Shown here one piece after another: positions 1-3,782 of a stretch of DNA of 45,942 nt. Origin of the DNA: Candidatus Cybelea tumulisoli (lineage in GTDB: Bacteria > Vulcanimicrobiota > Vulcanimicrobiia > Vulcanimicrobiales > Vulcanimicrobiaceae); assembly GCA_003167155.1 (NCBI GenBank), contig PMTY01000146.1, forward strand, positions 21,540 to 67,481. Direction: 5' to 3'. Within the stretch, counting starts at the first letter, position 1, and the number at the start of each line of letters is the position of its first letter. The translations under genes and the position numbers were made by a program. The notes beneath the pieces were generated by a model, which made no database searches, was not told where the DNA came from, and saw only the letters and a list, made by a program, of their open reading frames with translations.

Positions 1-158
1 TGCGCTGCCTCGTCGCTCCGGCATCCATGCCTGCGCTCCTCGGTCAGAACTTCCTCAGCATCGCGTCAACGCGCGACCCGCTAGAAGTTAAAGCTCTCTT
101 TTGAAAATAGAATCGCAAATAGACGCTGGGAAGAGGGGATTTAGCCCATCCCTATCTT

Positions 159-186
159 TGTCATCCTGAGCGCAGTCGAAGGATAG
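159..186 (+). repeat. Short dispersed hairpin repeat, copy 1
   Basis: The + strand reads TGTCATCCTGAGCG followed by CAGTCGAAGGAT. ATCCT and AGGAT can pair around a 12-base loop. A second, longer copy lies on the minus strand at 24866-24909, inside a cytochrome P450 gene, and shares both ends of the element. This copy lies just downstream of the metallothionein-like gene and may act as its transcript end, though no T-run follows. I recall similar TCATCCTGAGCG...GTCGAAGGAT elements from many environmental bacterial genomes; their function is unknown to me. Confidence 0.7.
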
Positions 187-202
187 GATAAGTTGAAGAC
201 GC

Positions 203-370
203 CTAGGGTTCGTCGCAGGGGGGGTGGCCGCAGATGCAGGTTTCTGACTCGATGGTTGATTCGGATGCATCTTGGCAAATGTCGCTGCAGAAGATTTCGT
301 CGGTTCCAACTGGCGAGGTTACGGTGCAGTTGCAGATTTCGTAGCTGCACTCGACGCCCAGTTCACGCAT
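203..370 (-). CDS. Small bacterial metallothionein-like protein (55 aa)
   Basis: A 55-residue acidic protein with eight cysteines (C8, C13, C15, C28, C32, C45, C47, C52) and one histidine (H49). Cysteine order matches the bacterial SmtA/metallothionein family (PF02069): an N-terminal C-x4-C-x-C block, a central F-C-S-x2-C block like the Y-C-S-x2-C of cyanobacterial SmtA, and a C-terminal C-x-C-G-H-x2-C block. Family members bind Zn, Cd or Cu through thiolate clusters in the cytoplasm. Compared with SmtA it lacks the second cysteine of the first block, the mid-protein histidine and the terminal cysteine, so metal capacity is probably lower. The ATG follows AGGAG with a 7-base spacer, and that AGGAG overlaps the stop codon of the upstream lipoprotein gene. 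At 55 codons it falls below common length cut-offs. Family call from motif order by eye; metal specificity is not known. Confidence 0.82.
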   Translation of the reverse strand: MRELGVECSYEICNCTVTSPVGTDEIFCSDICQDASESTIESETCICGHPPCDEP

Positions 371-377
371 CTACAGG

Positions 378-383
378 CTCCTA
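378..383 (-). promoter_or_regulatory. Shine-Dalgarno of the metallothionein-like gene overlapping the upstream stop
   Basis: On the minus strand the six bases are TAGGAG: the TAG stop of the lipoprotein gene runs into the AGGAG ribosome-binding site of the metallothionein-like gene, 7 bases before its ATG. This supports both the start choice and translational coupling of the two genes. Confidence 0.75.
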
Positions 384-1106
384 GGGACACGGCGTGGCGG
401 TTACTGGGTTATTCGAGATTTCGATGCTTACGATCTGGGCGGTCGGATCCCCAGGCGTGTAGAGTCCGAAGTACGTGTTGTCAAAGGGTTCGGTCATGCA
501 GAGCTTCGGTGAGATGAATTGCGGGTCGGTCGGACCGCCCGCACCCATTGAATCGAGGAAGTACCACTGGCCTTGGCTAGCCTCCGTGACGAACGCGTTG
601 AAGGTCCAGATATTGTTCGGGCTGGCGCTCGGCGAGGGCGATGGCGACGCGACGCCTTTAAAGATGGCCTTTTGAGCGATCATGGCGAACTCGGTACCTT
701 GCCCGTTGCTGTTCGGATTATAGGTAAGCTGGCCCGGCGTGGTGCCCAGCTTGAGCCACGCTGGAGGAATGTGGGGATTTTGATTTCGAACGAACTGCAC
801 CGCCTCCGCATACGAGGTTCCGGCAGTGCCCAACGCAACCAAGGCAAACGTATAGCCCGCCCAGTTCGTTTGTATGGTATCGGTCGACGGCGTCACTCCG
901 GTTCCCGACGTATTAAAGACGATCATGTATTGATAGTTCGAGAAGTTGAAGGGAGATTCTACGTCATAGTGTATGGCTATATATCCCGGAGGTGCGCCTC
1001 CGGGTCCCAGACCCGGAGGATTCGGCGTAACCTGACGACCGCACGCCACAACGATGAACGCCGTAACTAGCACGACAATAAAACCGAAACTTAATCTGCG
1101 AATCAT
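381..1106 (-). CDS. Lipoprotein of unknown function (241 aa)
   Basis: I do not recognise a family. The protein opens with MIRRLSFGF, a hydrophobic stretch and a lipobox ending V-V-A-C, so it should be a lipidated envelope protein. A proline/glycine linker (PNPPGLGPGG) follows, then a mostly beta-looking body rich in N, T, S, G and P, with a PSPSPSASP linker near residue 155. Two later cysteines (in the KLCMTEP motif and near the C-terminus, ATPCP) could form a disulfide. The open frame extends 61 codons further upstream, but ATG 1106 is preceded by GAGGAGACC at good spacing and starts the signal peptide, so I use it. Its ATG overlaps the lnt ATG on the other strand (shared CATG). The metallothionein-like gene follows 10 bases after the stop, so the two are probably co-transcribed. 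Confidence 0.75.
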   Translation of the reverse strand: MIRRLSFGFIVVLVTAFIVVACGRQVTPNPPGLGPGGAPPGYIAIHYDVESPFNFSNYQYMIVFNTSGTGVTPSTDTIQTNWAGYTFALVALGTAGTSYAEAVQFVRNQNPHIPPAWLKLGTTPGQLTYNPNSNGQGTEFAMIAQKAIFKGVASPSPSPSASPNNIWTFNAFVTEASQGQWYFLDSMGAGGPTDPQFISPKLCMTEPFDNTYFGLYTPGDPTAQIVSIEISNNPVTATPCP

Positions 1107-2580
1107 GGTCTCCTCGCTGTCCGCGCGCGATGCAGGCCTTGCTGCGTGCGCAGCCGTTCTTTTAGCGGCCGGGTTTCCAAAGTTTGGCGCAGCCTGGCTC
1201 GTCCCGTTCGGAACTGCAATCCTCTTCTGGCTTTGGCAAGGAGCTTCCTGGAAACGCGCGGCGCTTCTCGGTTGGTTAACCGGGTTCATTTTTTTTGCAA
1301 TCGACTTCGCGTGGGTCGGCCATACGGTAGGACGCTACATCGGCGCCTTCGGACCCTTTCTCGCAATTGGCCCCGCTTTGATCGAGGCCCCTTTCATCGC
1401 GTTAGCCGGCGCACTCTGCGGGATTGCCTATACTCGCATGCGTCCCGGCATAGCGCCGCTCGGTGCCGCCGCGGCGTTTACGATCTGCGAGTGGCTGCGA
1501 TCGATCGGCGTTCTGGCCGCACCTTTCGATCAGCTGGGCTACACCCAAGCGGATTCGCCGCTGCGAGCGATCGCCGCCTACGCGGGAACCTACGGCATCA
1601 CGTTCGTCTTGTGCGCGCTTGGAGCGTATGCGGCGGATGCACTGCGCCGCAAAACGTGGCGGCCGCTGCTCGCCGCGGTTGCGTCGACCGTCGTGCTCAC
1701 TCTGGGCGCGTGGACGTTCTGGCCGGCGCGTACGCTCGCGCCTGCGACGATTCCGGTCGTCGCGGTGCAAGGCAACATTCCGCAATCATTCAAATGGAAC
1801 GCGCTGGCGCTGGCGGTTCGCCGTTACTCGGAGATGACGCTGGCCTCCGCTCGCGTGCATCCGCGACTGATCGTGTGGCCTGAGACCGCGATCCCGACGG
1901 CGATCGACCTAGACCCGCTGCTGCTGGACCAGTTTTCCGACCTCGCACGCCGGCTTGGAAGCACGATCGTCGCCGGAGGCATCGATTCCAGCGGGACCAA
2001 GGTGTATAACGCACTCTATATCTTCTCGCCGGACGGTAGTTCCAAAATTTATCGGAAGCGCCAGCTCGTGGCTTTTGCCGAATGGTTTCCGGGCCGGGAC
2101 TTCCTCTCGTGGCTGCCCTATATCGGCGCACTCAACGGAGGTCTCACGCAGGGAAGAACGGCCGGCGTCTATCCCACCACCGCGCTCCCCATCGCCCCGC
2201 TTATCTGCTGGGAGTCGGCTTTCTCCGATTTGGCCTACGCCCAACTGCAGCGCGACTCCCAAATTCTCGTCGTGAGCACTGACGACGCCTGGTTTGGAAC
2301 GACCTCCGGACCGTACATGCACGCACAAATCGCGCAACTGCGAGCCATCGAAAGCGGAGCCTACGTCGTGCGGGCGGCGGCCACCGGCATCAGCGGCATC
2401 ATCGCCCCGGACGGAAGGTGGCAAGCACGCAGCCGTCTCGAACAACAAACTACCGTGGTCGGCAAAGTGGGCCGGCGGGTCCCGACGCTCTTCGCTCGCA
2501 TCGGTCCGACCCGCGTCGCACTGGCCTTGATCGCCTTGTATGGGCTGCTCTTCCTCGTTCCGTGGGCGCGGGCCGGGTAG
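1105..2580 (+). CDS. lnt: Apolipoprotein N-acyltransferase
   Basis: Inner-membrane enzyme that adds the third acyl chain to lipoproteins, making them ready for Lol sorting. At 491 residues it has the normal family length. Residues 1-210 carry the multi-pass membrane region; residues 215-470 are the nitrilase-like periplasmic domain, and one membrane segment follows at the C-terminus. The catalytic triad can be read as E260 (in IVWPETAIP), K318 (in YRKRQLVAF) and C368 (in LICWESAF), matching E. coli E267-K335-C387. I start at ATG 1105 rather than 1054, because the earlier ATG adds 17 residues of antisense to the divergent lipoprotein gene. No strong ribosome-binding site is visible. The LptC-like gene follows 7 bases after the stop. 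A complete Lnt fits the lipoproteins seen elsewhere in the window. Confidence 0.95.
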   Translation: MVSSLSARDAGLAACAAVLLAAGFPKFGAAWLVPFGTAILFWLWQGASWKRAALLGWLTGFIFFAIDFAWVGHTVGRYIGAFGPFLAIGPALIEAPFIALAGALCGIAYTRMRPGIAPLGAAAAFTICEWLRSIGVLAAPFDQLGYTQADSPLRAIAAYAGTYGITFVLCALGAYAADALRRKTWRPLLAAVASTVVLTLGAWTFWPARTLAPATIPVVAVQGNIPQSFKWNALALAVRRYSEMTLASARVHPRLIVWPETAIPTAIDLDPLLLDQFSDLARRLGSTIVAGGIDSSGTKVYNALYIFSPDGSSKIYRKRQLVAFAEWFPGRDFLSWLPYIGALNGGLTQGRTAGVYPTTALPIAPLICWESAFSDLAYAQLQRDSQILVVSTDDAWFGTTSGPYMHAQIAQLRAIESGAYVVRAAATGISGIIAPDGRWQARSRLEQQTTVVGKVGRRVPTLFARIGPTRVALALIALYGLLFLVPWARAG

Positions 2581-3165: not shown

Positions 3166-3465
3166 TTAGTCTTTATCGCCGAGCCTTTTCTTTGCCTCGG
3201 CGATCAGTTTCTTGACCTTCTGTCCGCCTTTATGGCCGATCGTCTCGTAAAAGTCCGAGCCGTATTTTTCCTTGACGACCTTGCCGCCTTTTTGGCCGAT
3301 CGTCTCGTAGAACTCCACGCCGTGGCGATCCCGCGTGGCCTTTCCGCCTTTACGGCCGATGTCTTCGTAGAACGTCGAACCGTAGCGGTCGCGCACGGTA
3401 TCGCCGCCCTTCTTTCCTGCCTCGCGCACGGACATCTCGCGCTTCGGCGCGCTTTTTTCAGCCAT
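3166..3465 (-). CDS. KGG-motif (GsiB-like) stress protein, four-repeat form
   Basis: A 99-residue, highly charged protein made of near-identical units of about 20 residues of the form Y-G-S-x-F-Y-E-x-I-G-x-K-G-G-x-x-x-x. Four KGG signatures follow the entry unit MSVREAGKKGG. This matches the stress-induced KGG repeat family (PF10685), whose best-known member is Bacillus GsiB, a hydrophilic general-stress and desiccation-type protein. The C-terminus is lysine-rich. No catalytic residues are expected. Start at ATG 3465; a second in-frame ATG before SVREAG is possible. A shorter paralogue lies directly upstream (3493-3708), and the two are probably co-transcribed after a local duplication. Confidence 0.85.
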   Translation of the reverse strand: MAEKSAPKREMSVREAGKKGGDTVRDRYGSTFYEDIGRKGGKATRDRHGVEFYETIGQKGGKVVKEKYGSDFYETIGHKGGQKVKKLIAEAKKRLGDKD

Positions 3466-3492: not shown

Positions 3493-3708
3493 TTACGACG
3501 CCGTCGCCTTTCGCTTGGGGCGCTGACCGCCCTTTTGGCCGATCACCTCGTAGAACGAGGGGCCGTATTTGCTTTTGGTGGCTTCCCCACCCTTGCGACC
3601 GATTTCTTCATAAAATTCCGAGCCGTACTTCGCCTTAACGCGTTCGCCGCCGCGGCGACCCGCCTCGCGGACGCTCATGCCGCCCGACTGTCCCGAATCC
3701 TGTGCCAT
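3493..3708 (-). CDS. KGG-motif (GsiB-like) stress protein, short form
   Basis: A 71-residue paralogue of the neighbouring gene, with the same MSVREAG entry unit followed by Y-G-S-E-F-Y-E-E-I-G-R-K-G-G type repeats (one repeat fewer) and a basic tail (QRPKRKATAS). The frame is open for 19 more codons, but ATG 3708 is preceded by AAGGAGG at normal spacing, one of the strongest Shine-Dalgarno sequences in the window, suggesting high expression. Family as for the neighbour: hydrophilic stress protein of the GsiB/KGG type. This is the first gene of the two-gene unit; about 110 bases separate it from the coaE stop upstream. Confidence 0.85.
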   Translation of the reverse strand: MAQDSGQSGGMSVREAGRRGGERVKAKYGSEFYEEIGRKGGEATKSKYGPSFYEVIGQKGGQRPKRKATAS

Positions 3709-3782
3709 GTAGATCGATCCTCCTTGGTCTGGTGTATATTCCTTTCCCATACAAGCGCTCGGCAAACTCGGGATTTGCTGAG

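Follow-up and report, generated by a model that had tools for sequence, protein, structure and literature searches.

A short minus-strand gene near the start of a 45,942-nt stretch of the Candidatus Cybelea tumulisoli genome (hereafter, the window) is confirmed here as a real, conserved gene. Its 55-residue product, P0001, carries eight cysteines and a conserved histidine, and appears to represent a selected and widespread variant of the bacterial metallothionein-like proteins that has no model of its own.

Gene structure, conservation, and selection

The frame translates without interruption into P0001 (MRELGVECSYEICNCTVTSPVGTDEIFCSDICQDASESTIESETCICGHPPCDEP), which has 12 acidic residues and a single Lys/Arg, giving a net charge of −11 when Lys, Arg, Asp, and Glu are counted. 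The preliminary description named no strand; the plus-strand frame at the same positions contains stops, and other short frames there are open. As that description had it, a good ribosome-binding site precedes the start, and the gene does not overlap its upstream neighbor (Table 1): the AGGAG shares bases with the stop codon (381–383) of the lipoprotein-like gene upstream, which ends 10 nt before the ATG on the same strand. This spacing suggests that the two genes share one transcript. A simple scan of window positions 1–1300 found no sigma-70-like promoter, weak evidence that fits read-through from upstream. The apolipoprotein N-acyltransferase gene (lnt) is divergent from the lipoprotein-like gene, and its true start is probably later in the frame. 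At window positions 1104–1107, an in-frame ATG of the lnt frame overlaps the ATG of the lipoprotein-like gene; if both starts are used, there is no room for an intergenic promoter.

Table 1. Features of the window around the metallothionein-like gene
Feature	Position	Strand	Remarks
Dispersed repeat	160–183		Just 3' of the metallothionein-like gene; once in the window
Metallothionein-like microprotein gene	203–370	minus	55 aa plus stop; C8, C13, C15, C28, C32, C45, C47, H49, C52
AGGAG ribosome-binding site	378–382	minus	Read from the sequence; 7 nt before the ATG
Lipoprotein-like gene	381–1106	minus	About 241 aa from the ATG at 1106; N terminus lipoprotein-like by eye
Apolipoprotein N-acyltransferase gene (lnt)	1054–2580	plus	Pfam LNT_N 8.2e-27, CN_hydrolase 4.5e-30
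KGG-repeat stress protein, first of tandem	3166–3465	minus	Pfam KGG 1.1e-13
KGG-repeat stress protein, second of tandem	3493–3765	minus	Pfam KGG 1.2e-08

A protein search with P0001 covered 41 genomes (its own and 40 relatives); 32 of them matched at E ≤ 1, many only weakly. Within the genus, strong homologues free of stops, 49–100% identical (E ≤ 9e-15), are present in 12 of 18 genomes, its own included, and in 8 of the 10 genomes with a completeness of ≥90% and a contamination of ≤5%. The remaining 6 of the 18, including G009 (95% complete) and G014 (97%), gave no strong match. A lack of homologues in related genomes, or a frame broken by stop codons or non-triplet indels in close relatives, had been named beforehand as decisive against the gene; we found neither.

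The gene is under purifying selection. We compared 12 ungapped coding sequences, 11 from the genus and one (L041) from another genus of the same family, leaving out G006, whose match had no aligned start. Over the 66 pairs, pN/pS in the frame of the gene had a median of 0.41 and a maximum of 0.83, whereas medians in the five other frames, with stop codons skipped, ranged from 0.56 to 1.33. Among these pairs, the nine of lowest pN had values of 0.17–0.42. Synonymous change thus dominates, a point that the preliminary description had proposed to check.

Distribution and genomic neighborhood

We built a profile (A1) from 27 BLAST-picked sequences, having dropped L028, L029, and L031 for stops or for want of the cysteine pattern. 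At E ≤ 0.001 it matched 89 of 149 genomes of the phylum (57 of the 85 good-quality genomes) and 39 of 70 genera, whereas the metallothionein model PF02069 passed its curated cut-off in 0/149. The expectation of a family widespread in the phylum and lacking an annotation model is borne out. A scan with a single peptide pattern, CxCGHP[PQE]CD, yielded 42 named loci. One is labeled Proteobacteria and eight simply "bacterium"; the others carry the labels Eremiobacterota/Eremiobacteria, Vulcanimicrobiota, WPS-2, or UBP12. The phylum of the window is thus apparently Candidatus Eremiobacterota. A sequence set chosen with this pattern (A3) is used below; invariance at the pattern positions in that set proves nothing. 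In the phylum of the Proteobacteria-labeled locus, A1 matched 3 genomes (E ≤ 0.001) of a sample of 398 that includes G149, the genome of that locus, and PF02069 was over its cut-off in 15 of the same 398. The metallothionein-like type is common in the phylum of the window, and rare but present in this sample of the other. We found no paper on metallothioneins of this phylum (Eremiobacterota, Eremiobacter, WPS-2) in the open-licence literature.

Copy number varies: two genomes from another family of the class (G032, G037) have seven copies of the gene each (e.g., L161, L163, L164, L165). A second subfamily (L174, L176, L178, L192, L196, L197), reading roughly CENLACLCEV...CSDYC.SPDGRDPQN..CECGHPxC, occurs in genomes of the same family as the window, in some as a second copy. 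Neither P0001 nor the L076 protein matched plasmids at E ≤ 1. Three relatives gave only weak plasmid matches (E ≤ 10), the best of them, in Halapricum (E = 0.03), lying antisense to an annotated gene, and we regard these as chance.

The surroundings of the gene are largely shared among the named loci. The lipoprotein-like protein, with no match in Pfam (E ≤ 10) or NCBIfam (E ≤ 1), has a homologue in 32 of the 42, within 250 nt of the metallothionein-like gene in 30; lnt is found in 32, an LptD-like gene in 31, and LptF/LptG in 27, while the other 10 loci have none of these. Lnt and LptF/G were identified by Pfam. The LptD-like label is our reading of the sequence of a neighbor that matched nothing in Pfam (E ≤ 0.01), NCBIfam (E ≤ 1), or PDB (E ≤ 1). 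The arrangement of the window, in which the metallothionein-like gene shares its strand with the lipoprotein-like gene and points against the LptD-like gene, occurs in 19 loci; L050, counted among these, is an exception, with the LptD-like gene on the far side and a convergent lipoprotein-like gene. In 12 it runs in the same direction as the LptD-like gene (L043, L045, L047, L049, L052, L056, L062–L064, L067, L070, and L071, in contrast to the window, L035–L037, and L039–L042), and L038 has no LptD-like gene. Across lineages, then, the metallothionein-like gene stays in one place, with the LptD-like gene on one side and the lipoprotein-like gene on the other, but its orientation changes. Since rpsA-like, coaE-like, and mutM-like genes (recognized by eye) are also syntenic, this stability of position may be due to inheritance alone.

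At other loci, the neighbors scanned are of different kinds (lysine decarboxylase-like, methionine synthase, MFS, DNA ligase, sigma factor, ABC-2 permease, and others), and among them we recognized neither a metal regulator nor a dedicated metal pump. Pfam likewise revealed no SmtB/ArsR-type regulator among the neighbors scanned (the lipoprotein-like protein plus 7, 10, and 10 proteins). The repeat listed in Table 1, GTCATCCTGAGCGCAGTCGAAGGA, recurs at 58 places in its own genome with at most two mismatches (18 exact; reversed control, 0), and presumably resembles repeats of other soil genomes.

Ligand pattern and relationship to known families

The eight cysteines and H49 are conserved, another point that the preliminary description had proposed to check. 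We scanned 140 loci, of which 136 matched, giving 132 distinct sequences, the number of A1 matches in the phylum; L028, L029, L031, and L089 had no profile match and so fall outside the counts. Seven cysteines (C8, C13, C15, C28, C32, C45, C47) are present in 132/132 and C52 and H49 in 130/132 each, frequencies that carry some bias because the sequences were selected with the A1 profile. Both exceptions (L183, L208) come from G138, a member of another family of the phylum that is not listed as the same class. All nine positions are invariant in the 27 A1 sequences. In a smaller set of 115 sequences, from which 17 matches are missing, 15 of these ranking with the weakest, H49 and C52 each occur in 114. 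The pattern C-x4-C-x-C...C-x3-C...C-x-C-x-H-x2-C fits 130 of the 132, with Tyr or Phe before C28 in 117 of those. The residues between the cysteines vary much across the family, whose net charge, taken over the matched part, has a median of −7.

For comparison we used a canonical alignment (A4) of 12 rows, the segment of SmtA from Synechococcus elongatus (PF02069; PDB entry 1jjd) and 11 of the 19 PF02069 matches over the cut-off in the sample of 398 genomes; left out were four without a locus, L103 and L104 (no pattern match), and L096 and L099 (long tails). The block order of the eight cysteines in P0001 agrees with SmtA/1jjd and with A4, as first described, with co-linear blocks CxxxxCxC, [YF]CSxxC, and CGHxxC. 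C8, C13, C28, and C32, present in 132/132, align with the zinc-finger (site A) cysteines of SmtA, which we take to be C9, C14, C32, and C36. The preliminary claim that three ligands are missing is true of P0001, which lacks counterparts of SmtA positions that we number C11, H40, and C54. C11 is Cys in all 12 rows of A4 and Tyr in P0001 (position 10), so that the CxCxxCxC start of PF02069 is absent; H40 is invariant in 12/12 rows and is Ser in P0001, the family showing no conservation there; and C54 has no conserved counterpart in the 115-sequence set. The claim is nonetheless incomplete: because C45, without counterpart in A4, is an extra cysteine, and because His occupies the C11 position in 77 of 132 relatives, the ligand set has been changed rather than only reduced. 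The other residues at that position include Asn (24), Tyr (17, P0001 included), Arg (6), and Cys (3). Two of these last three, the ten-cysteine relatives L216 (from G114) and L217 (from G112), combine the canonical CxCxxCxC start with the CxCxHxxC end and are possible intermediates to SmtA-type proteins.

The search with PF02069 that the preliminary description recommended did not recover P0001 (no match at E ≤ 10). At E ≤ 0.01 the 149 phylum genomes yielded 10 matches below the cut-off; A1 also detects 9 of the genes concerned. Of the 27 A1 members, 7 match PF02069 weakly (best E = 0.0048), and about equally well 5 match DUF2116, a "probable treble clef" family (best E = 0.0034). The best Pfam matches of P0001 itself, DUF1667 (0.094) and DUF2116 (0.096), are both below cut-off. 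NCBIfam gave no match to P0001 at E ≤ 10, and among the A1 members a single weak one, in which one sequence hit the model of an unrelated dehydrogenase. A second PF02069 match in the genome of the window (L001) proved to be a chance frame, covering profile positions 1–20 only; another frame at that place reads by eye as a signal-peptide-like protein. Judged by its sequence, P0001 is outside PF02069, both by the Pfam cut-off and by the three ligand positions, and it plausibly works like a PF02069 metallothionein. The idea that it escapes annotation by length is not supported: SmtA itself has 56 residues, the 55 of P0001 exceed the usual minimum of gene finders, and the obstacle is the absent model.

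Several comparisons point from the family to SmtA-type metallothioneins. Alignment of A1 with A4 by hhalign gave a probability of 90% and a score of 32.2 over 42 columns, and use of A3 gave 91% and 33.4. The maxima over 200 column shuffles each were 17.6 (A1 versus A4) and 17.9 (A3), and reversal gave 10.9, although shuffles test column order only and cyclic permutations of A4, in which large parts still align, score up to 31.6. The PDB profile search returned three matches at E ≤ 10, none significant on its own, led by SmtA (1jjd, E = 0.04), with the metallothionein of Pseudomonas fluorescens Q2-87 second (6grv, E = 2) and 6avj third (E = 3.8). For the fold we used an alignment-based AlphaFold2 model (pLDDT 77.5, pTM 0.55), setting aside a single-sequence model (pLDDT 67.0). 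Among 350,542 chains, Foldseek placed 1jjd first of 11 matches (TM 0.54/0.57 over 52 columns; E = 2.4, probability 0.20, not significant alone), so that SmtA is the best match of the family by both PDB sequence profile and fold. The profile–profile, PDB profile, and Foldseek results agree in supporting a distant homology to SmtA-type metallothioneins, each weakly to moderately and none conclusively alone, and the label "metallothionein-like" stands.

Less probable than the zinc buffer or store proposed below is a structural zinc finger that would bind a protein or nucleic-acid partner, like YacG, with one permanent zinc in a treble clef and another in a CxCGHxxC knuckle. This gyrase inhibitor, also a small zinc finger, supplies Foldseek matches 2 and 6 (1lv3 and 4tma), eight cysteines and one histidine suffice for two separate four-ligand sites, DUF2116 is matched about as well as PF02069, and the acidic surface could suit a protein partner. 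Yet the YacG alignments span 36 columns each versus 52 for SmtA, which also aligns over nearly the full length by sequence, and YacG is absent from the six Pfam families that the 27 members match at E ≤ 1. The variable residues between the cysteines are likewise unlike the fixed binding face of a structural finger. YacG has one zinc site only. We are similarly doubtful of a related reading, in which a separate acidic family of eight-cysteine, putative zinc proteins replaces the SmtA type in the phylum, with two largely independent sites (treble clef and CxCGHxxC). A role in envelope biogenesis might then be considered, since the slot between LptD-like and lipoprotein/lnt genes is kept in most named loci despite strand switching.

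It is very improbable that P0001 is an iron–sulphur or redox protein of CDGSH-like local design (CxC...[YF]CxxxC). The third PDB profile match, 6avj, is indeed CDGSH protein 3, but it spans profile positions 11–40 and leaves C8, C45, C47, H49, and C52 unexplained; the CDGSH family is absent from the same six Pfam families, and the local motif occurs also in SmtA. Although the frame has little length and this GC-rich region has many other open frames, a chance open frame is refuted, with next to no probability left, by the homologues, the purifying selection, the conserved ligand pattern, and the Shine-Dalgarno site.

Proposed function and significance

We consider it likely that P0001 is a zinc buffer or store, a small, very acidic and presumably cytosolic protein, descendant or sister of the SmtA-type bacterial metallothioneins, that would hold about 2–3 Zn(II); it would probably bind cadmium too. 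C8, C13, C28, and C32 would form a treble-clef fold around a single structural zinc, bound tightly, and C15, C45, C47, and C52 together with H49 would take one or two more exchangeable zinc ions. By count, eight cysteines and one histidine could make up either two sites that share no ligand or a cluster of three metals in which three thiolates bridge. The total would be about 2–3 zinc versus 4 in SmtA, a protein of 56 aa described as Zn4Cys9His2 (PMC10119931). The zinc-finger fold of SmtA forms once site A is filled, and the site A zinc is the last to leave (PMC10612145). The metal capacity of P0001 itself may be lower, with Tyr in place of His at position 10.

Because no SmtB-type regulator is recognized beside the gene, and because it lies 10 nt behind the lipoprotein-like gene, P0001 would be present constitutively or depending on growth phase, as a buffer or store of zinc, and would not be an inducible detoxifier. 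P0001 differs from SmtA in its PF02069 result, in its ligands, in its charge, −11 versus −1 for the 49-residue SmtA segment compared, and, among the neighbors scanned, in having no recognized SmtB-type regulator. The Q2-87 metallothionein has no adjacent metal regulator and apparently shares one operon with genes of unknown function; the Pseudomonas protein is induced in stationary phase and is dispensable for metal resistance (PMC7387436). An SmtB/ArsR-type regulator lies beside a number of cyanobacterial metallothionein genes and is lacking for those of Pseudomonas (PMC7387436). Unlike P0001, the Q2-87 protein has a CxCxxCxC start; it also has a disordered C-terminal tail and nine cysteines and one histidine in a Zn3Cys9His cluster (PMC7387436).

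The family would extend the known sequence diversity of bacterial metallothionein-like proteins to an uncultured phylum, where PF02069 passes its cut-off in none of 149 genomes, and the A1 profile could become an annotation model. With three SmtA ligands lost, one cysteine gained, and Cys replaced by His in 77/132, it would also provide a natural variant for asking which ligands set zinc capacity.
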